From contig SUWA01000023.1 in assembly GCA_015061695.1 (NCBI GenBank), positions 1-34,921 on the forward strand: a stretch of 34,921 nucleotides of DNA, read 5' to 3'. The notes under the pieces are model-generated. The model did no database searches. It was not told where the DNA came from and saw only the letters and a list, made by a program, of their open reading frames with translations. Made by a program: the position numbers and the translations under genes. This document shows positions 15,208-26,541 of the stretch, piece by piece. This DNA comes from Lentisphaerota bacterium (GTDB lineage Bacteria > Verrucomicrobiota > Lentisphaeria > Victivallales > Victivallaceae). Each line of letters starts with the position of its first letter. Position 1 is the first letter of the stretch.

Positions 15208-15687
15208 TTATTTTTGCGGATCAGCTTTTGCTCCGCGCGAACCACGCGGACGGTCGCCGCCTTTGCCGCGCGGACCGCGCTGACGATCACCGCGCGGCTG
15301 ACGCCGGGGCATTTTCAATTCGCCGGACTTCACTTTTTCCAGAAAACTTTTGGCGCGCTGCTGCTGATCTTTTTCCAGATTGGCCAGCGCTTTTTCCAGA
15401 TTGGCTTTGCGTTCGGCGGTATCTTTTTTCATGGCTTCGTTCAAAGCCTTTTCCAGCGCCGCAAAATTTTCCGGCGTGGGGTTGGCCTGATAAGCGCGCA
15501 ATTCTTTCATTACCAGTCTGGCGGTCATCATATCCGGATTGCGGCGCATATCCATGCCAGGACCGCGCCCGTAGCGCTGCTGCATCATGGGGTTGCGTTC
15601 CGGCGCCGGAGCTTCGGCACGGAGATCAGGCGCAGAAAACAATACTCCACCCAGCAATAAAACACTACTGAAAACTTTCAAGATCAT
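15208..15687 (-). CDS. Secreted small basic protein with Arg/Gly-rich C-terminus, hypothetical
   Basis: 159 aa; signal peptide 'MILKVFSSVLLLGGVLFSAPDLRAEA', helical Glu/Lys/Ala region, tail 'RRQPRGDRQRGPRGKGGDRPRGSRGAKADPQK'; own terminator. Confidence 0.65.
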   Translation of the reverse strand: MILKVFSSVLLLGGVLFSAPDLRAEAPAPERNPMMQQRYGRGPGMDMRRNPDMMTARLVMKELRAYQANPTPENFAALEKALNEAMKKDTAERKANLEKALANLEKDQQQRAKSFLEKVKSGELKMPRRQPRGDRQRGPRGKGGDRPRGSRGAKADPQK

Positions 15688-15798: not shown

Positions 15799-16680
15799 TC
15801 AAATTTTTTTCTGTACCGCCAGCAAACCTTCCCGCCCCGGGATCGTGCCTTGCTCGATTCGGCCGGTCGGAAGGTTGCCGCTCAACAGCGCGGAAGGCAG
15901 TACGATCTCGATATTGCGCTCTTTGCACATGGTCAGAAAATCGTCAAACATTTGACTGCAAATACCGCCTTCGGCTTCGGCGTGGATGGTCAGCAGATTC
16001 ATTGCATCGGGTTTGGCAAACTCCAGCAGCCGCTCGTTGTAATTGCTGTTGGTAACTCCGTTGCGGCCGATCAACTCATCGTAGGTCGGCATGGAAAGCG
16101 GTATTTGCGGTGTTTTGAGCAAAGTTCCGTTGACTTCCGGCATAAAAACTGAATCGCCGCGGCAATCGCTGTTGTAACGGAAGTTGAATTTGTCTTTGAC
16201 GAGCAACGCTTCTTCGCTGCAGCGCCAGCCGGGGGCGGCTGAACATGTCGGGGGATTACCCGTGATTTCGCAAATCGTATCGTAAGCCATCTGCAAATGG
16301 CGTTCGATTTTTGACTCGCGCATTTTCATGATCCTGGCCTGCCAGGTCTGGTGATCCCATGCGTGCAATCCGATTTCGTGGCCGGCAGCGGCGCAATCGC
16401 GTAAAACTTGTTTGCAGCGTTTGCCGATTTTCGGCCCCGGCCATGCCGTACCCATAAAAATTATATCAAAACCGTAAAGACCGGCTGCCGGAGTACGCAG
16501 CATTTTCCACAGAAATTTGGGCTTGAGCAGGCGCCACAGATGACGCCCCATATTGTCCGGCCCCACCGAAAAGAAAAATGCTGCCTTGACCTGATGTCTG
16601 GCCATGATTTCCAGCAGTTTGGGTACACCTTGCCGGGTGCCGCGCAGAGTATCTACATCGACTCTTAAAGCGATTTTCAT
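15799..16680 (-). CDS. arnD: 4-deoxy-4-formamido-L-arabinose-phosphoundecaprenol deformylase (ArnD-like polysaccharide deacetylase)
   Basis: 'MKIALRVDVDTLRGTRQGVPKLLEIMARHQVKAAFFFSVGPDNMGRHLWRLLKPKFLWKML', 'AAGHEIGLHAWDHQTWQ'; 4-bp ATGA overlap with arnB. Confidence 0.92.
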   Translation of the reverse strand: MKIALRVDVDTLRGTRQGVPKLLEIMARHQVKAAFFFSVGPDNMGRHLWRLLKPKFLWKMLRTPAAGLYGFDIIFMGTAWPGPKIGKRCKQVLRDCAAAGHEIGLHAWDHQTWQARIMKMRESKIERHLQMAYDTICEITGNPPTCSAAPGWRCSEEALLVKDKFNFRYNSDCRGDSVFMPEVNGTLLKTPQIPLSMPTYDELIGRNGVTNSNYNERLLEFAKPDAMNLLTIHAEAEGGICSQMFDDFLTMCKERNIEIVLPSALLSGNLPTGRIEQGTIPGREGLLAVQKKI

Positions 16681-17828
16681 TTTTTCAGTATATCCTTGAT
16701 AGCTGCGACCACATCGTCAATATCCTGATCGGTCATATCCGGGAACATGGGCAGCGAAAGTATGCGTTCGGAGTTCCATTCCGTATCCGGCAGCATACCG
16801 GGTGCGCAGTTGAACGCTTCCCGGTAATATTTCTGCAAATGCACACAGCGGAAGTGCAAGCCGGTGCCGATATTGCGTTTTTTCAATTCGCTCATAAAAT
16901 CATCGCGGCTCATCGCAGCTTTATTTATATCCAAGCGTACCACCATCAGGTGATGCGCGTGAGTAAACTCGTAATCCGGCTGTTTAAGCTGGATTATTTC
17001 GTCGATGCTGTTGAGTTTTTCGGCATACTGCTGCATGATATAACCGCGTTTGCGGTTCATTTCGTCTACTCTGGCCAGCTGACCGATACCCAAAACGGCC
17101 TGCATATCCGGCAAATTGAATTTGAATCCCGGTTCTACCACCTGGGCCTGCGGAGCGCGGCCGTGGGTTTGCCGGTCATAAGCATCCACACCCAAACCGT
17201 GGAACTTCAAACTCCGCATCCGGTCGGCCAGAGCCTGATCGTCGGTGGCAAACATACCGCCTTCTCCGGTGGTGATGTTTTTGATCGGGTGGAAACTGAA
17301 CATGGCATGGCCTTTTTTTCCGACTTTTTCGCCTTTGTAAGCTCCGCCCAGCGCGTGAGCGGCATCTTCCACCAGCATGATATTGTGTTTGGCGGCTACC
17401 GCGCGGATCTTATCCATATCCAGGATCGCACCGGCAAAGTGTACCGGCACAATAAGTTTGGTGCGGGGGGTAATGGCTTTTTCGATCGCTTCAGCGGTGA
17501 TCATAAGTGTATCGCGGTCGCAATCAACAAAGACCGGAGTTGCACCGCTCAATGCCGTGATGTTGACCATCGAAACCCACGTCATGGAAGGCGTTATGAC
17601 TTCATCGCCCGGGCCCAGATCAATGGCGCGGGCCAGCGTCTGCATTACGCTGGTTTCGCTGGTCATGCAGACCACATCCGCAGCTCCGGTGTAGGCTTTG
17701 AGGTCGCTTTCAAACTGGGCGCCTTTAGGCCCGGTGGTGATCCAGCCCGACCGCAGCACATCGCCGACGGCGGCGATCTCTGCTTCGGTTATACAGGGCT
17801 TGGAAAAAGGCAAAAATGTATCTCTCAT
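16677..17828 (-). CDS. arnB: UDP-4-amino-4-deoxy-L-arabinose--oxoglutarate aminotransferase
   Basis: DegT/DnrJ/EryC1 family: 'FLPFSKPCITEAEIAAVGDVLRSGWITTGPK', 'VVCMTSETSVMQTLARAIDLGPGDEVITPSMTWVS', 'LVEDAAHALGGAYKGEKVGKKGHAMFSFHPIKNITTGEGGM'. Confidence 0.92.
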   Translation of the reverse strand: MRDTFLPFSKPCITEAEIAAVGDVLRSGWITTGPKGAQFESDLKAYTGAADVVCMTSETSVMQTLARAIDLGPGDEVITPSMTWVSMVNITALSGATPVFVDCDRDTLMITAEAIEKAITPRTKLIVPVHFAGAILDMDKIRAVAAKHNIMLVEDAAHALGGAYKGEKVGKKGHAMFSFHPIKNITTGEGGMFATDDQALADRMRSLKFHGLGVDAYDRQTHGRAPQAQVVEPGFKFNLPDMQAVLGIGQLARVDEMNRKRGYIMQQYAEKLNSIDEIIQLKQPDYEFTHAHHLMVVRLDINKAAMSRDDFMSELKKRNIGTGLHFRCVHLQKYYREAFNCAPGMLPDTEWNSERILSLPMFPDMTDQDIDDVVAAIKDILKK

Positions 17829-17891: not shown

Positions 17892-19877
17892 TTACTTGTC
17901 AGTAAATTCGCCGCTTTCCACGGCCTGTTGCAGGAAGAAGTCCAGCGTTTCTTTGACCGATTCTTCCAGCTCGACCACCGGCTTCCAGTCGCAATAGCGC
18001 CAGGCGTTTTTGATGCTGGGCTTGCGGTGCTGGCAATCCTGATAGCCTTCGCCGTAGAAACTGCCGCTTTCCACTTCTTTGAATCCGGCAAAAGGCGGGA
18101 ACTTGCCGCGCAACGGGTGGTTTTCAAAGTGTTTGACCAGAATTTCGGCCAATTCCTTGATGCTTGCTTCGTTATCGGGGTTGCCGATATTGATGATTTT
18201 GCCGTCGCAGCGGTTGTCTTTATTTTCCACGATCCGGAACAGGCACTCGATACCGTCGGTAACGTGCGTAAAGCAGCGTTTCTGCAAACCGCCGTCGATC
18301 AGCTGGATCGGGTTGCCCTGTACCAGATTGAGGATCAGCTGGGTGATGGCCCGGCTGCTGCCCAGACGCGCGGAGTTGAGGCTGTCGAGTTTCGGCCCCA
18401 TCCAGTTAAAGGGACGGAACAGCGTGAATTTCAGCCCCTTGGTTCCATAGGCCCAGATCACGCGGTCGAGCATCTGCTTGCTGCAGCTGTAGATCCAGCG
18501 CTGCATCCGGATCGGGCCGAGGATCAGACGGCTGTTGTCTTCATCAAAGTTTTCATCATCGCACATGGCGTAAACTTCGCTGGTGGAGGGGAAGAGAATA
18601 CGTTTGTTGTACTTGTGGCACAACCGCACGATGCGCAGGTTTTCTTCAAAGTCCAGTTCAAAAACACGCAGCGGGTTGCGGGTGTATTCGATCGGAGTGG
18701 CGATCGCCACCAGCGGCAGCACGATATCGCACTTGCGGATGTGGTATTCGATCCACTCGCGGTTGATCTGGATGTCGCCTTCAAAGTAATGGAAGTTGGG
18801 GTGGTTGATGATGTCGGAGATGTAATTGCTCCGCAGGTCCATACCGTAAACTTCGTATTTGCCGTCTTCCAGCAACCGGCTGCTGATGGCGCTGCCGATA
18901 AAACCGTTCACGCCCAGGATCAGCACTTTTTTGCGGTCAGTACGCGGCGGGCGTTCACTGTTGGTGAAGTTCATTTTTTCAACAAAGCGGCAGGTTTTGG
19001 CCAGCTGACTGCCGGAGCAGTAGATGCCGTTTTCCTGCTGGGCAAAGTCGACCTTGACCGCATCTTTGCCGGCGGCCACGATCAAAGGATCGGTCGAGAT
19101 GACCGTGCCGGGTTTGGCATTGGCGGTGTTTTCGACCTTGCTTACTTCCCAGAAGAGATATTTTTTAGCCGCGTAGTAGCTGAACGCACCGGGGTAGGGC
19201 TGGGTGACTGCCCGCACCAGATTGCGTATCTCGTCCGCGCTTTTGGTCCAGTCGATCAGGCCGTCGGCGGGTTTGCGGCCGCCGAATTTAGTGGCTTCGG
19301 CTTCGTTCTGCGGAGTGCGCGGAGCTGTTCCGGCAATGATCGCCGGCAGCGTCTTTTTGAGCATGTCGCGTGCGGCATCGGCAGCTTTCAGGTGCAGATC
19401 TTTGGCAGTATCGAGGTCGTCGATTGCAATTTCCTGCTGGGCAACAATATCACCGGCGTCAGCTTTGTTTGTCATGTAATGCAAAGTTACACCGGTGGTT
19501 TTTTCGCCATTGACGATCGCCCAGTTCAGCGGCACGCGGCCGCGGTATTTGGGCAGGAGCGAACCGTGCAAATTCAAACAACCCTGCGCCGGAATATCCA
19601 GTATCGGCTGCTTGACCATGTTGCGGTAGTAGAACGAAAAGATCACATCCGGCTGCATGGCCTTGATGCGGCTGACCCACAGCGGGTGGTTGATATCTTC
19701 GGGCGAAAAGACAGGCAGATTTTTGCGGGCGGCCAATTCGGCCACGCTGCGGAACCAGACATTTTCGTTGGGATTATCCTGATGAGTGAATACAGCCTGA
19801 ATTTCGATGCCGGCATTGAGCAATTCTTCGATGCCGACACAACCGATATTGTGATACGCTAAAACTACAGCTTTCAT
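17892..19877 (-). CDS. arnA: Bifunctional UDP-glucuronic acid decarboxylase / UDP-4-amino-4-deoxy-L-arabinose formyltransferase
   Basis: 661 aa. Formyltransferase domain '[49 protein letters not shown]'; decarboxylase domain '[30 protein letters not shown]', '[19 protein letters not shown]', C-terminal '[32 protein letters not shown]'. Confidence 0.95.
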
Positions 19878-20854
19878 TATTTGTTTTCTCCTGCGTTGTT
19901 ATGTTTTTTGCCTTGTACATATTCGATAAAATATTGGGGTCTGGCGCGGGTGTTGATATGGATCTTGCCAATGTATTCACCCAGCAGCCCCAGCGCTGCC
20001 AGCACGCCGCCAGTCAGCACAAACTGGATGGAAAACAACGCAAAGACGCCGTCCGCTCCCCAGTGTTTGTCGATTTGCGACATGATAAAGATCACGATGC
20101 CGAAGATCACCCCGAAAGCCGCCACCAGAAAACCGCACACAGTCAGCATCCGCAGCGGGAAGATCGACGTGCCGGTCAGCAGATCGTACTGCAAAGCAAT
20201 GAGTTTCCAGAGATTGTACTTGGAAACCCCGGCGGTACGTTCGGCGTGTTTGACCTCCACTTCGCACACATTGCGGGCAAAGCTCATGGCCAGCATGGGG
20301 ATGAATTTGCCGTGTTCGTGGCAGCGCAGGATCGCGTTGATCACCGGGCGGCTGTAACCGCGCAGCATACAGCCGTAATCCTGCATGGTGCGGCCGTTGC
20401 AGAGTTTGCGCACCATGCGGTTGACGCATTTGCTGGCGAATTTGCGGAAAAAGGTATCCTGCCGGTTTTCGCGGATGGAGCCGACCACATCAAAACCTTC
20501 GCGCAATTTTGCGAGTATTTTATGGATCTCTTCGGGCGGATTCTGCAAGTCGGCATCCATGGTAACGATATATTTGCCGCTGGAAACTTCCAAACCCGCC
20601 GTTACTGCTGCGTGCTGGCCGAAGTTGCTGGAAAGCACCACCGCCACCACCTGACCGGGATTTTTTTCCGCCGCTTCGCAGATCATTACCTGCGAGGCAT
20701 CGCGGCTGCCGTCATCAACCAGAATTATTTCGCTGGTGGTGTTGAGTTTTTTTACTGCTGTCAGAGTTCGCTGCAACAGCTCCGGTAAGTTATCTTCTTC
20801 GTTATACACGGGTATAACGATTGACAGTTCGATATTTTTTTCTGCCTCGCTCAT
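19877..20854 (-). CDS. arnC: Undecaprenyl-phosphate 4-deoxy-4-formamido-L-arabinose transferase
   Basis: GT2 '[22 protein letters not shown]', '[13 protein letters not shown]', '[16 protein letters not shown]', '[18 protein letters not shown]', two C-terminal TM segments; stop and start shared with arnA (TAATG). Confidence 0.92.
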
Positions 20855-21114: not shown

Positions 21115-21783
21115 ATGCGTATATTGTTAGTCGAAGATGACCGCGCTACTGCGGATTTTATCAGCAAAGGTCTGAATCAGGCCGGTTTGCGCTGCGTCCA
21201 CGCTGCGGATGGTTTGGAAGGCTTGATCAAACTGCGCAGTGAGTCTTTTGATCTGGCAGTGGTGGATATCATGCTGCCCAAGCTCGACGGCTTGTCGCTG
21301 ATCGAAGAAGCCCGCAATGCCAAACTGACTTTGCCGATCATTGTTTTGAGCGCCCGGGATTCGGTTGAAAGCAAGATCAAAGGTTTGGAAAAGGGCGGCG
21401 ATGATTATATGGCCAAACCTTTTTCGTTTGCCGAACTGCTGGCCCGGATCCAGGCACTGCTGCGGCGGGCATCGCAGACCGCTGAACCGACCCGGCTGGT
21501 GGTCGGCGATCTGGTGATGGATCTGTTGAGCCGCAAAGTCAGCCGCAGCGGAGTGAATATCGAGCTGCAGCCGCTGGAGTTTCAGCTGTTGGAGTACCTG
21601 ATGCGCAACCGGGGCAGAGTGGTTTCCAAAACTACGATATTGGAACATGTGTGGGAATATAATTTTGATACTCAAAGCAACATTGTGGAAGCCGGTATTT
21701 TCCGTTTGCGCGAAAAGATCGACAAACCGTTTGATGTAAAATTGATCCGTACAGTAAGGGGGTTCGGATATGTCCTGGATTAA
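21115..21783 (+). CDS. OmpR/PhoB-family two-component response regulator
   Basis: Receiver 'MRILLVEDDRATADFISKGL...DLAVVDIMLPKLDGLSLIEEAR...PIIVLSARDSVESKIKGLEKGGDDYMAKPFSFAELLARIQALLRR' and winged-helix 'LLEYLMRNRGRVVSKTTILEHVWEYNFDTQSNIVEAGIFRLREKID...IRTVRGFGYVLD'. Confidence 0.95.
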   Translation: MRILLVEDDRATADFISKGLNQAGLRCVHAADGLEGLIKLRSESFDLAVVDIMLPKLDGLSLIEEARNAKLTLPIIVLSARDSVESKIKGLEKGGDDYMAKPFSFAELLARIQALLRRASQTAEPTRLVVGDLVMDLLSRKVSRSGVNIELQPLEFQLLEYLMRNRGRVVSKTTILEHVWEYNFDTQSNIVEAGIFRLREKIDKPFDVKLIRTVRGFGYVLD

Positions 21784-23392
21784 ATCGCCGTTTTTCCGCT
21801 CGGTCAAATTCCGGATCGCAGCGGTATATGCCTCGCTGCTGACCGTGGCTGTTATTGTGCTGTTTACAGCCTTTTTTATCTATTGCAAGCAAGAGATCTA
21901 CACGCTGATGGATCGGGATCTGGCCGACAATGTTGACCGCTTGAGTTATGAATATCTGACCGGCAGTGGCCTGCCGGAGGGGTTTGTGCCGGTAAAAAAC
22001 AAGCGTTCCAGAAAAATCGCTGTTCAAGCCAGACAGGAAATCGGTAAGGATTTCAAAACCCTTATGACATTTGAAAATGAAAAAGCGCAGAAAATACTGG
22101 TACTCGGCACTCTGAAAGATCAGCTCAAACTGGTGTTGAGTTCACCGGGCAAATCTATAGAGATCCGCGATATAAAACAAGTGCCGGACAGCGAAAAAAA
22201 TATTGCAGAACTGACCCGCGAAAAGCCTGAAAACGGACGGCAATATGATTACTTCTGGCTTTACAGTGCCGACGGCAGAGAATTGTTCGGTTCTTCGGTT
22301 GGCAGCAGCGACAGCGAATGGATCCGCAAACTTAAATACAAGACCGGCCGCAACAAAGTTTGTTACAGCATTGCTGATGCTCCGCGCCACCGTTTGCGGG
22401 TGGCTTACCGGAGTTTGCCGGATGGCAAAATAATGGCGGCGGCCCGCAGTTTGCATGATTTTGACAGCGGTATTGAACGGCTGCTGATAATTTATCTTTC
22501 GATCGCCGGCGGAGTGCTGGTTTTGAGTTTTGTCTGCAGTTACTTGATCGCCTGCCGGCTCTGCCGCGGCGTTGATGCGGTAAGTGCGGCGGCCAACGCT
22601 GTAGCTGAAGGCGATTATACCCGGCGGGTCAAACCGCGCAACTCCGGCAGCGAGATCGACCGGATGATGAAAAATTTCAATACCATGATCGGCAATACTG
22701 AAAAACTCATGGACGAGCTGCGGACTATTTCGGACAACATAGCCCACGATTTGCGCACGCCGTTGACCCGGATGCTGGGACGGGCCGAGTTGGCTGTAAC
22801 CGGTGATATGAGCCGCGAAGATTACGAAAATGCTTTTGCAGCCAATGCCGAAGAGTGCCGCCGGATGCTGGCGCTTATCAATACCATGCTGGATATAACC
22901 CGTACCGAATCCGGTACCGGCCAGCTGCATTGGGAAGAATTTGATCTGGCTAAAGTGCTGGATCAGGCTATCGAACTCTTTGGCATGTTGGCCGAACAGA
23001 AAAATTTGAGTTTGAGCTGCCGCTTGCCGGAAATGCCGGTCATATTGCAGGGCGACCGGATGCGTTTGCAGCAGTTGATCGCCAATCTGCTGGATAATGC
23101 GATCAAGTTTACGCCGGAAAACGGCCGGGTGGATGTCAGTTTGCAGCTGGAAAGCTCCAACGCCATTCTGACCGTGCGCGATAACGGATGCGGCATGAGT
23201 AAAGAAGAGCTGGAACAGGTTTTCAAACGTTTTTATCGTGCCGACAGCAGCCGTTCGCTGCCCGGCAACGGCTTGGGTTTGAGTTTGGTGCAGGCGATCG
23301 TCAATGCTCACAAAGGCTCGATCGAAATCAGCAGCGAACCCGCCGAAGGTACGGTTGTATGGGTCAAACTGCCGTTGATGAATAAAAATTAA
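21770..23392 (+). CDS. Two-component sensor histidine kinase (HAMP-HisKA-HATPase)
   Basis: 540 aa; two TM segments, large periplasmic region, H-box 'DNIAHDLRTPLTRMLGRAEL', N/G boxes 'NLLDNAIKFTPENG', 'VRDNGCGMSKEELEQVFKRFYRADSSRSLPGNGLGLSLVQAIV'. Overlaps the RR gene by 14 nt. Confidence 0.95.
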   Translation: MSWIKSPFFRSVKFRIAAVYASLLTVAVIVLFTAFFIYCKQEIYTLMDRDLADNVDRLSYEYLTGSGLPEGFVPVKNKRSRKIAVQARQEIGKDFKTLMTFENEKAQKILVLGTLKDQLKLVLSSPGKSIEIRDIKQVPDSEKNIAELTREKPENGRQYDYFWLYSADGRELFGSSVGSSDSEWIRKLKYKTGRNKVCYSIADAPRHRLRVAYRSLPDGKIMAAARSLHDFDSGIERLLIIYLSIAGGVLVLSFVCSYLIACRLCRGVDAVSAAANAVAEGDYTRRVKPRNSGSEIDRMMKNFNTMIGNTEKLMDELRTISDNIAHDLRTPLTRMLGRAELAVTGDMSREDYENAFAANAEECRRMLALINTMLDITRTESGTGQLHWEEFDLAKVLDQAIELFGMLAEQKNLSLSCRLPEMPVILQGDRMRLQQLIANLLDNAIKFTPENGRVDVSLQLESSNAILTVRDNGCGMSKEELEQVFKRFYRADSSRSLPGNGLGLSLVQAIVNAHKGSIEISSEPAEGTVVWVKLPLMNKN

Positions 23393-23480
23393 TTTTATTT
23401 TAAGAATCCGGTAAAACACTTTGGGTATATTGTTGCAATGACCAAAGAAGGTGCAGCCGAATTTTGAGGAGTGATTTTAT

Positions 23481-25196
23481 ATGTTGAATACCGAGCGATT
23501 TTCCGAGCGCAAGTTCCATGGTATAATGCTGGCAATACTGGCGGCATTTTTTCTGCTGGGGTATATTCTGCCGTTAGGCTTGCGCGATATGATGCGCCCC
23601 GATGAGTTCCGTTATGGCGAGATCCCCCGCGAAATGATCGCGCGCGGCGATTGGACCACACCGCTGCTGGTGGGGGTGCGCTACTTTGAAAAACCGGCAT
23701 TGGGATACCAGTGGACGGCACTCTCGATGGAGATTTTCGGCGAAAATGCTTTTGCGGTGCGCTTGCCTTCCGCGCTTTCGGTCGGATTGGCCGCGCTGCT
23801 GATCTATTGGCTTTGTGGTGCCAAAAGCCGCGATCGCTGGCTGGCACCGTTGGCATCGGCGCTGTATATGAGTTTTGCACTGGTGTTCGGGGTCGGGACT
23901 TTTGCGGTACTCGACAGTCAACTTTCCATGGCGCTTACCTGGTGCATCGGCAGCTATTACCTGGCGTGCGAAGCCGAAAAGATCCCGCGCAAACTTATGT
24001 GGCTGGCCGTGGCCGGATTGGCCGCCGGCGCGGCGTTCCTGTTCAAAGGTTTTCTGGCTTTTGCTGTGCCGGTGGTGGTGATCGCACCCTATTTGATCTG
24101 GCAGAAGCAATTCATGAAGTTTCTGACTACTCCGTGGCTGCCGCTGGTGTTGGCAGTCGGCGTGGCACTGCCGTGGAGTCTGGCGATCTGGAAAGCGGAA
24201 CCGGAATTCTGGAATTACTTTTTTATCGAAGAACATATCAAACGGTTTACCTCCGGCACTTATGACCGCTCGCCGGAACCGTTCTGGTTTTTCATTCCGG
24301 TACTGCTGGGGGGCATAATGCCGGGCGGACTGCTCTGGCTCGGCGCGTGGAAAGGTGTCTGCAAAGAGTGGCTCAAGGAGCCATTGGTGCGCTTTTGCAT
24401 CTGCTGGAGCGTCATGCCGTTTATATTGTTCAGTATCAGCAGCTGCAAGGTCGGTACTTACATATTGCCCTGCTTTCCGCCGCTGGCCATTCTTACGGCA
24501 TGGGCGTTTATCCGGGCGCTGAAAAAAAATCAGGATAAAGTGCAGAAGTTTTTGCGCATCATAGATTTGAGCTTGGGCTGGATCCTGATGGCCGGCGGGA
24601 TCCTCTGCGGAGCGTTTTTGATCGTATGGCGGCTCAAACTGGCCGCAAAATGGCCGTTATTCGATCCGGAGTCGATGCTGCCGCTGACTGCGGCGCTGCT
24701 TTTGAGTGTGTTCGGCGCAGTTTGTTATTGGTGCCAAAAACTGGAAATCAAACTGCAGCTTTGCATACTGCTGGGCGGATTTATCACTGTTTGCGGCTGG
24801 GGCGCGCCGGTGATCTTGAGCAATGCGACCAATCCGCAGAAAATGCCGGAAAAGACCTTGAGAAGATTTTATCAGGAGTGGGAAATAACCGATAATGATG
24901 TGGTGGCCGTTGACCGCGGCGCAGCCACTGCGACCGCGTGGATCCTCAAGCGCGATGATTTGCCGGTGGTGGGGCGTTACGGCGAATTTCAATACGGTTT
25001 TACCAAATTTCCGGAAGAATATTCCCTGCGCTATTACGAAATTGATGATATTGAGCGCCTGCTCAAAGATTCAGGCGATAAACGGGTGTTTTTTGTCAAT
25101 ATCCGCAGCATAAAAAAGAACGCTTTCCCGAAAGATTGGAAAGTAAAACGCACTAAATCCGAACAGGGTATCACCATTGTCGAACTTGATAAATAA
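23481..25196 (+). CDS. arnT: ArnT-like lipid A 4-amino-4-deoxy-L-arabinose transferase / PMT-family glycosyltransferase
   Basis: 571 aa; 'RDMMRPDEFRYGEIPREMIARGDWTTPLLVGVRYFEKPALGYQWTALSMEIFGENAFAVRLPSALS', 'AAFLFKGFLAFAVPVVV', multiple TM segments; adjacent to the arn cluster. Confidence 0.85.
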   Translation: MLNTERFSERKFHGIMLAILAAFFLLGYILPLGLRDMMRPDEFRYGEIPREMIARGDWTTPLLVGVRYFEKPALGYQWTALSMEIFGENAFAVRLPSALSVGLAALLIYWLCGAKSRDRWLAPLASALYMSFALVFGVGTFAVLDSQLSMALTWCIGSYYLACEAEKIPRKLMWLAVAGLAAGAAFLFKGFLAFAVPVVVIAPYLIWQKQFMKFLTTPWLPLVLAVGVALPWSLAIWKAEPEFWNYFFIEEHIKRFTSGTYDRSPEPFWFFIPVLLGGIMPGGLLWLGAWKGVCKEWLKEPLVRFCICWSVMPFILFSISSCKVGTYILPCFPPLAILTAWAFIRALKKNQDKVQKFLRIIDLSLGWILMAGGILCGAFLIVWRLKLAAKWPLFDPESMLPLTAALLLSVFGAVCYWCQKLEIKLQLCILLGGFITVCGWGAPVILSNATNPQKMPEKTLRRFYQEWEITDNDVVAVDRGAATATAWILKRDDLPVVGRYGEFQYGFTKFPEEYSLRYYEIDDIERLLKDSGDKRVFFVNIRSIKKNAFPKDWKVKRTKSEQGITIVELDK

Positions 25197-26220
25197 ATAT
25201 AAATCGTGGCGCGAACAGCTCTGGTTCAAGATCTTCAGTATGGCGTTTAAATTGGCGCTGGCGGCACTTATATTGCTGGTGCTGATCGCCAAAGCAGATA
25301 TAAAAATAGAAAACTTTGCCGGACTGGATATGCGCTGGATAGCGGCGGCATTGCTGGCAATATTGCTGCAGAATTTTCTGACGGCGGTACGCTGGTGGTA
25401 CCTTATGCGCTCGGTGGGGGTCAAGGCTTCGCTCTTCGAAGCGCTTTCGCTGACCATGCAAGGATTGTTTTATACACTGTTTATTCCCGGCGGATCGGTT
25501 TCCGGCGACGTGGTCAAAGCCGCACTGATGGCAGGCAAAAGTGCTGACGGCAGTAAATTTGCCGCCGCATTTTCAGTTTTGATCGACCGGGTGTGCGGGT
25601 TGTGCGGACTGCTGCTGCTTTCGTTCATCGCCGCTTCGGCGGTGCTTTTACTGGATATAGCCGGCAATGGCTTATTCAAAACGTTGCTGACAGCCACAGC
25701 GATCATAGCGCCCTGCGCGCTGATCTGTGCGGTAATGGCGTTCCGGTGCGATGTTATCCTGAAAATAAAACTCTTCAAAAAACTGTATGATTTTCTGGAC
25801 AAAATCAGCAAAGGCGCCATCGGGCGGATCGAAAACGCGTTGGCCGCTTACCGCCCGGCCTGGAAGACGGTTCTGGCATGGACTCTGATTTCCGGTTTGA
25901 TCGCATTTCCGTTGATCGCGCTGGCGGTGTGGTTTATTGCCGCCGCGTGTCCGGACAGCGGCGGTTGGAGTTCCGGCAGCTGTGTTGCGGGGGCCTTGTT
26001 GTCCGGCAGCATCGGCGAATTGGCCGGAATATTGCCGCTGACTCCCGGCGGGATCGGGGTCAGGGATGCGGTGTTTGTCGAAATATTTAAAGCCTGCGGA
26101 CTGCCGGGGGGAGTGGCCACTCAAATTCCGGTACTTTTTACCACTTTGTTTGTGCTGGCCAGTTCCACGGGGGCATTTTTTGCATTGTACATGCTGATCG
26201 TCAAGCGGCGCAAACGTTGA
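25177..26220 (+). CDS. Lysylphosphatidylglycerol synthase TM region / AglD2-type (PF03706) membrane protein, putative flippase
   Basis: 347 aa polytopic; 'AVRWWYLMRSVGVKASLFEALSLTMQGLFYTLFIPGGSVSGDVVKAALMA', 'SVLIDRVCGLCGLLLLSF', 'GELAGILPLTPGGIGVRDAVFVEIF'. TTG start; overlaps arnT by 20 nt. Confidence 0.82.
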   Translation: MSNLINKYKSWREQLWFKIFSMAFKLALAALILLVLIAKADIKIENFAGLDMRWIAAALLAILLQNFLTAVRWWYLMRSVGVKASLFEALSLTMQGLFYTLFIPGGSVSGDVVKAALMAGKSADGSKFAAAFSVLIDRVCGLCGLLLLSFIAASAVLLLDIAGNGLFKTLLTATAIIAPCALICAVMAFRCDVILKIKLFKKLYDFLDKISKGAIGRIENALAAYRPAWKTVLAWTLISGLIAFPLIALAVWFIAAACPDSGGWSSGSCVAGALLSGSIGELAGILPLTPGGIGVRDAVFVEIFKACGLPGGVATQIPVLFTTLFVLASSTGAFFALYMLIVKRRKR

Positions 26221-26223
26221 TTT

Positions 26224-26541
26224 TCAGCGGTATTTTTCCACCAGATCGGCGGCCAGACGCACACATTCCTTACAGGGGTACGGTTCTGCGGCCGATTTGA
26301 TGGCATGACAGGTTTCCCCTCCGGCTTGCGCGGTAAATTCAGCAATGATTTGAGCATGTTTAGCGGCCGGAGTCAGTTCCAACGCTGCATGTAATGCGCC
26401 GCAGCGGCCCAACGGAGCTTTGCCGCCGCCGCAATTCTGCATGGCTTCCGCCATTGCCCGGCAGCCGAAGCCATCGGCTACGGCCTGGGCGCAGTTGTGT
26501 TTTTTGGGTACAGCAGTAAAAAGTTCATACGCGTTGTTCAT
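26224..26541 (-). CDS. C_GCAxxG_C_C family (redox-active, Cys-rich) protein
   Basis: 105 aa; 'HNCAQAVADGFGC...NCGGGKAPLGRCGALHAAL...CHAIKSAAEPYPCKECVRLAADLV' cysteine pattern. Confidence 0.7.
   Translation of the reverse strand: MNNAYELFTAVPKKHNCAQAVADGFGCRAMAEAMQNCGGGKAPLGRCGALHAALELTPAAKHAQIIAEFTAQAGGETCHAIKSAAEPYPCKECVRLAADLVEKYR

Follow-up and report, generated by a model that had tools for sequence, protein, structure and literature searches.

How does C55P-L-Ara4N reach ArnT in a bacterium that carries the genes for making it and in whose assembled genome neither ArnE nor ArnF is found? The question is raised by the 34,921-nt stretch of Lentisphaerota DNA analysed here (hereafter the window), in which arnT is followed by a gene for an MprF-type flippase-like membrane protein of family PF03706. 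It was suggested in the original prediction that this gene might replace the missing flippase. The window is one whole contig (G000:C60) of a MAG of 2.65 Mb that is 84.8% complete, with about 15% of the genome missing.

The arn locus and the gene after arnT

Table 1. Features of the arn locus, in coordinates of the window.
Feature	Position	Strand	Details
up1	15208..15687	-	159 aa, no Pfam family; flanks the locus on the left in G143 (with arn genes) and in G144 and G145 (both without)
arnD deformylase	15799..16680	-	NF011923 383.7 bits, cut-off 382
arnB-like aminotransferase	16677..17828	-	NF008658 559 bits, cut-off 631
arnA, bifunctional formyltransferase/oxidative decarboxylase	17892..19877	-	NF005998 1081 bits, cut-off 777
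arnC-like undecaprenyl-phosphate Ara4FN transferase	19877..20854	-	NF007986 386 bits, cut-off 529
OmpR-type response regulator	21115..21783	+	profile matches
Sensor histidine kinase	21770..23392	+	HAMP, HisKA, HATPase_c; 14-nt overlap with the regulator gene
arnT-like GT-C glycosyltransferase	23481..25196	+	571 aa; NF009784 408 bits, cut-off 567
AGGG, Shine-Dalgarno-like	25165..25168	+	8 nt before TTG; counterpart in G143 and G142
arnT/PF03706 overlap	25177..25196	+	20 nt, 3' end of arnT; kept in G143 and G142
PF03706/TIGR00374 MprF-type flippase-like membrane protein	25177..26220	+	347 aa, TTG start, stop 26218-26220
dn1	26224..26541	-	105 aa, Cys-rich, no Pfam family; flanks the locus on the right in each of the five congeners

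The locus consists of two divergent units (Table 1), with the regulator, kinase, arnT and PF03706 genes on the plus strand (21115-26220) and arnC, arnA, arnB and arnD on the minus strand (20854 to 15799). ArnA and ArnD score above their NCBIfam equivalog cut-offs; for ArnB, ArnC and ArnT the equivalog is the best match and the score lies below the cut-off. As judged from these profile matches, the L-Ara4N gene set ArnA, ArnB, ArnC and ArnD is complete in the window. The ArnT cut-off (NF009784, 567 bits) is passed in none of the 388 genomes of the phylum. ArnT activity needs a Tyr, a Lys, an Arg and a Glu in both Burkholderia cenocepacia (Y43, K69, R254 and E493) and Salmonella (PMC5377068), and in the alignment all four are present in the window protein, at the motifs RYG, YFEKP, YDRSPEPFW (the Arg) and GEFQYGF. 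In the congener G142, arnDBAC (L126, G142:C46) lies on a different contig from the regulator-kinase-arnT-PF03706 unit (L064, G142:C45), and the two divergent halves can therefore part while arnT and PF03706 stay joined.

The family assignment of the 347-aa product stands, since the protein scores 107 bits against the PF03706 cut-off of 33.4 (E=1.7e-30, residues 23-321) and 58.4 against the TIGR00374 cut-off of 43.2. PF03706 is its sole Pfam match, hence it carries no fused PF09924 synthase domain, and no ArnE/ArnF, SMR or EamA match was obtained for it. The gene is the only one of its family in the assembly. PDB sequence and profile searches with the protein gave no match to solved MprF chains; the estrogen-receptor matches that they returned at E of about 0.1 are due to chance. 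AlphaFold2, run on an alignment of 2 sequences (the window protein and one relative), reached a mean pLDDT of 40, too low for the model to be of use.

The TTG start inside arnT and the 20-nt overlap, both part of the original prediction, are confirmed by the coordinates. In G143 and G142, too, the overlap measures exactly 20 nt and the start codon is TTG, with AGGG or GGGG 8-9 nt upstream, in congeners whose ArnT is 64% identical to that of the window (62-64% among the three species) and whose PF03706 protein is 62% (G143) and 53% (G142) identical. Given its conservation in three diverged species, the overlap is more than chance. Retention of overlap, TTG and Shine-Dalgarno sequence in all three likewise supports the translational coupling to arnT that had been proposed, which we regard as probable. 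In E. coli, arnE directly follows arnT and overlaps it by 4 nt. Since the overlap in the window also lies at the 3' end of arnT, the PF03706 gene holds the place of the missing flippase.

ArnE/ArnF and arnT neighbours across the class

That ArnE/ArnF ORFs are missing was also borne out: the models NF011625 and NF002816 gave no match at E<=0.01 in the window or anywhere else in the 84.8% complete assembly. The ArnE cut-off was passed in none of 80 genomes tested in the class (the two arn-less congeners and 78 in which ArnA was matched), and that of ArnF in none of 40. Matches above noise in the class fell mostly in ORFs of about 300 aa, and a few genomes outside the genus had small, SMR-sized proteins. 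ArnA was found in 83 of 198 genomes of this Lentisphaeria-type class, nearly always above the bifunctional equivalog cut-off. In the genomes examined and by these profiles, the arn-bearing Lentisphaeria are a group without a known ArnE/F flippase.

One way to account for this is that another transporter flips C55P-L-Ara4N, be it one of the EamA/DMT proteins of about 300 aa, which are distantly related to ArnE/F, or the GtrA-domain protein, and that the PF03706 protein only assists or recycles the carrier lipid. Candidates exist, as G000 has 20 EamA matches (13-20 per congener in five, nearly all in ORFs of about 300 aa; those of G000 mostly so, rather than in ORFs of 110-130 aa) and a single GtrA domain, in a 402-aa ORF away from the arn locus; moreover, the remainder of the class does without both ArnE/F and an arnT-linked PF03706 gene. 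However, the arn locus contains no EamA or GtrA candidate, and proteins of both families are also present in the arn-less congeners; we consider this explanation very unlikely.

An ArnT-like protein (E<=1e-30) was detected in 98, and a PF03706 protein (E<=1e-10) in 161, of the 198 genomes surveyed in the class. Among the matches listed, the two genes stand side by side in all three arn-bearing members of the genus and in none of the approximately 95 other genomes with an ArnT-like protein, adjacency being judged partly by eye from contig positions. A tblastn search of 60 arnT loci, which included loci outside the class but within the phylum, found the pair in those three genomes only, and no other flippase gene was found beside arnT in other genera. 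This includes G102 (L068) and G195 (L069), where a regulator-kinase-arnT unit (ArnT 48% identical) is followed by neither PF03706 nor a recognisable flippase. The co-occurrence of an arnT-linked PF03706 gene with absence of ArnE/F thus holds in this genus and fails in the rest of the class, which is ArnE/F-less yet unlinked. The other arn-bearing genomes, having neither ArnE/F nor an arnT-linked PF03706 gene, must have another answer, possibly an unlinked PF03706 protein.

PF03706 is widespread in the order, occurring in 120 of 137 genomes, 42 of them without ArnA. The two go together slightly more often than chance would predict, PF03706 being present in 78 of 82 genomes with ArnA as compared with 42 of 55 without (Fisher p 0.003, and p 0.03 in genomes at least 90% complete, kinship being uncontrolled in both).

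Several other arrangements were encountered in the survey. The gene after PF03706 in most related genera, frequently overlapping it, is MTHFR/DUF5981-like (L109:2312-4818, L113, L119, L120 and others), so that a lipid flippase-like gene is paired with folate-type enzymology across most of the family. In many relatives (for example G123:C89, G196:C1:1043385-1046626, L076), GT-C proteins resembling ArnT, with about 34-44% identity to that of the window, are encoded in tandem pairs at a distance from arnA. The units of G102 and G195 have no arnA-D nearby, and their regulators are 71-76% and their kinases only 38-40% identical to those of the window. Genes c10, c11 and c18, beside arnD in some genera, were suspected to be GtrA-like and are actually [2Fe-2S]/NADH dehydrogenase-type proteins.

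Constraint on PF03706 with and without arn genes

In two congeners, G144 and G145, neither an ArnT-like nor an ArnA match was obtained. At the same locus they carry up1, PF03706 and dn1, followed at some distance by an ABCF gene; up1 and PF03706 have no arn gene between them, and the PF03706 reading frame is intact over its full length in both. All five PF03706 proteins of the genus fall into a single clade. ArnA of the genus nests in another family of the order, with 73-75% identity to most members of that family versus 64-70% to its own, whereas MutL shows its greatest similarity within its own family; it follows that the arn cluster was probably acquired horizontally. An unrooted tree of six core genes joins G144 and G145 as sisters and places G143 closest to this pair; the six genes neighbouring the locus served as species marker because rpoB is missing from G000 and G145. 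With an outgroup, insertion and loss of the arn genes were indistinguishable (AU p 0.40), and since the root of the genus is ambiguous, one gain or one loss fits equally.

On the fixed species tree, the rate of PF03706 relative to core genes was 1.96 on arn-bearing and 5.28 on arn-less branches, so that it evolved 2.7 times faster in the pair G144/G145 (2dlnL 93.7 for one extra parameter), a contrast that reflects a single evolutionary event and counts as one rather than several. For six neighbouring control genes 2dlnL ranged from 0.7 to 7.1, the largest value being in the opposite direction. Between arn-bearing pairs dN was 0.31-0.40 for PF03706, near the 0.30-0.32 of arnT; dN alone was compared, in place of a dN/dS relaxation test, because codon-based dS was saturated. 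Of 18 positions that do not vary among 17 PF03706 proteins of other genera, 17 are kept in the arn-bearing copies and 13 and 14 in the two arn-less copies, which have lost G110, Y225 and G292 among others. Read most simply, some of what the PF03706 protein does hinges on the arn pathway, and some function persists without it.

These data bear on two further explanations. In the first, a horizontally acquired arn cluster would have landed upstream of a resident PF03706 gene, which would be transcribed by read-through and have no functional link to it. The family affinities of ArnA and MutL, the arn-less up1-PF03706-dn1 locus of G144 and G145 and the equal fit of insertion and loss all agree with such a bystander. 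Chance placement does not, however, account for an exact 20-nt overlap, TTG and Shine-Dalgarno sequence kept in three diverged species, for the higher constraint on PF03706 where arn genes are present, or for G142, where regulator, kinase, arnT and PF03706 are still together with arnDBAC on another contig. We therefore think it quite unlikely.

In the second, the protein would be a flippase or scramblase for another cationic or bulk lipid, for example the aminoacyl-lipid of a candidate PF09924 partner (a 'split MprF'), and would share the arn operon because both counter cationic peptides. This alternative is a real one because a stand-alone PF09924 gene was present in all 18 genomes tested (G000 and 17 relatives); that of G000, of aminoacyl-PG synthase type, is single and encodes 328 aa (G000:C117:2720-3520). 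The many PF03706 genes of the order in genomes without ArnA and the intact copies of the arn-less congeners point the same way. It leaves unexplained, however, why constraint drops only in the arn-less pair, given that PF09924 occurs in both groups, and the PF09924 gene, whose product is putative here, does not adjoin PF03706. We regard this possibility as unlikely, though one to be taken seriously.

Proposed function and comparison with known systems

It was originally proposed that the PF03706 protein replaces ArnE/ArnF. In favor of this are the conserved coupling, the missing ArnE/F, the full L-Ara4N set, the ArnT residues, a family of promiscuous lipid scramblases and a constraint that tracks the arn genes within the genus; against it are a linkage to arnT in one genus only and the presence of PF03706 at the same locus in two arn-less congeners. 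PF03706 is not a general replacement for ArnE/F. What we retain, at about an even chance, is a candidate partner-defined MprF-type flippase that probably serves C55P-L-Ara4N in this genus.

According to this proposal, the two-component system would turn on the regulator-kinase-arnT-PF03706 unit, and ribosomes ending arnT would restart at the overlapping TTG, so that transferase and flippase would be made together. C55P-L-Ara4N would be made at the cytoplasmic face by ArnA, ArnB, ArnC and ArnD and be brought by the PF03706 protein to the periplasmic face, where ArnT would use it. A passive scramblase could suffice, because ArnT would consume C55P-L-Ara4N on the outer side. The low-specificity MprF-type channel would owe its substrate to its neighbours and not to a selective pocket.

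Precedents for parts of this scheme exist. The MprF of Pseudomonas aeruginosa was demonstrated in 2025 to act as a promiscuous scramblase, with selectivity proposed to arise from proximity to the partner enzyme, and stand-alone MprF-type domains such as YbhN exist (PMC11980842). Genes of PF03706 type lie beside aminosugar-lipid enzymes in gpgSDF of P. aeruginosa (PMC12713373) and hexSDF of Clostridioides difficile (PMC10128005). A point against the scheme is that the product lipids are not abolished by loss of GpgF (PMC12713373) or HexF (PMC10128005).

A bolder version of the proposal, to which we give somewhat less than an even chance, is that one MprF-type scramblase replaced the two-subunit ArnE/ArnF for C55P-L-Ara4N, its substrate being set by coupling to ArnT, and that unlinked PF03706 proteins do likewise in many arn-bearing, ArnE/F-less Lentisphaeria. 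We know of no PF03706 protein shown to move a polyprenyl-phosphate sugar, so this would be the first to our knowledge, and no publication describing a PF03706 flippase for L-Ara4N turned up in a search of the open-access literature. What is known of the MprF-type family comes mainly from aminoacyl-phospholipids and antibiotic resistance. If the proposal is true, it fills a gap in the L-Ara4N pathway of a large bacterial group, and the substrate range of MprF-type scramblases widens to polyprenyl-phosphate sugars. The natural arnT-PF03706 pair also makes 'selectivity by proximity' directly testable for MprF domains. Even if the proposal is false, how arn-bearing Lentisphaeria manage as a group without a known flippase is a testable question.

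Compared with the EmrE-like ArnE/ArnF of E. coli and Salmonella, the predicted flippase is alike in pathway and in its place after arnT, with a longer overlap (20 nt versus 4 nt in E. coli), and differs in being one 347-aa PF03706 protein instead of two SMR/DMT proteins of 111 and 128 aa. With the MprF flippase domain (RtMprF, PaMprF, SaMprF) it shares the Pfam family name (LPG synthase TM region) and the tie to cationic head-group lipids and peptide resistance. Unlike MprF, it has no fused synthase, its partner would be ArnT, and it is a single domain of TIGR00374 size where MprF has a larger membrane part of two subdomains. GpgF and HexF are, like it, stand-alone MprF/YbhN-like proteins of aminosugar-lipid operons, and hexSDF adjoins its own two-component system as does the unit in the window. 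However, the lipids concerned are GlcN-PG in the one case and an aminohexosyl glycolipid in the other rather than C55P-L-Ara4N, and the flippase role is putative there too. GtrA/GtcA, a 4-TM family unrelated to the PF03706 protein, is comparable in its proposed role, the transfer of C55P-monosaccharides across the membrane to GT-C transferases of the periplasm.
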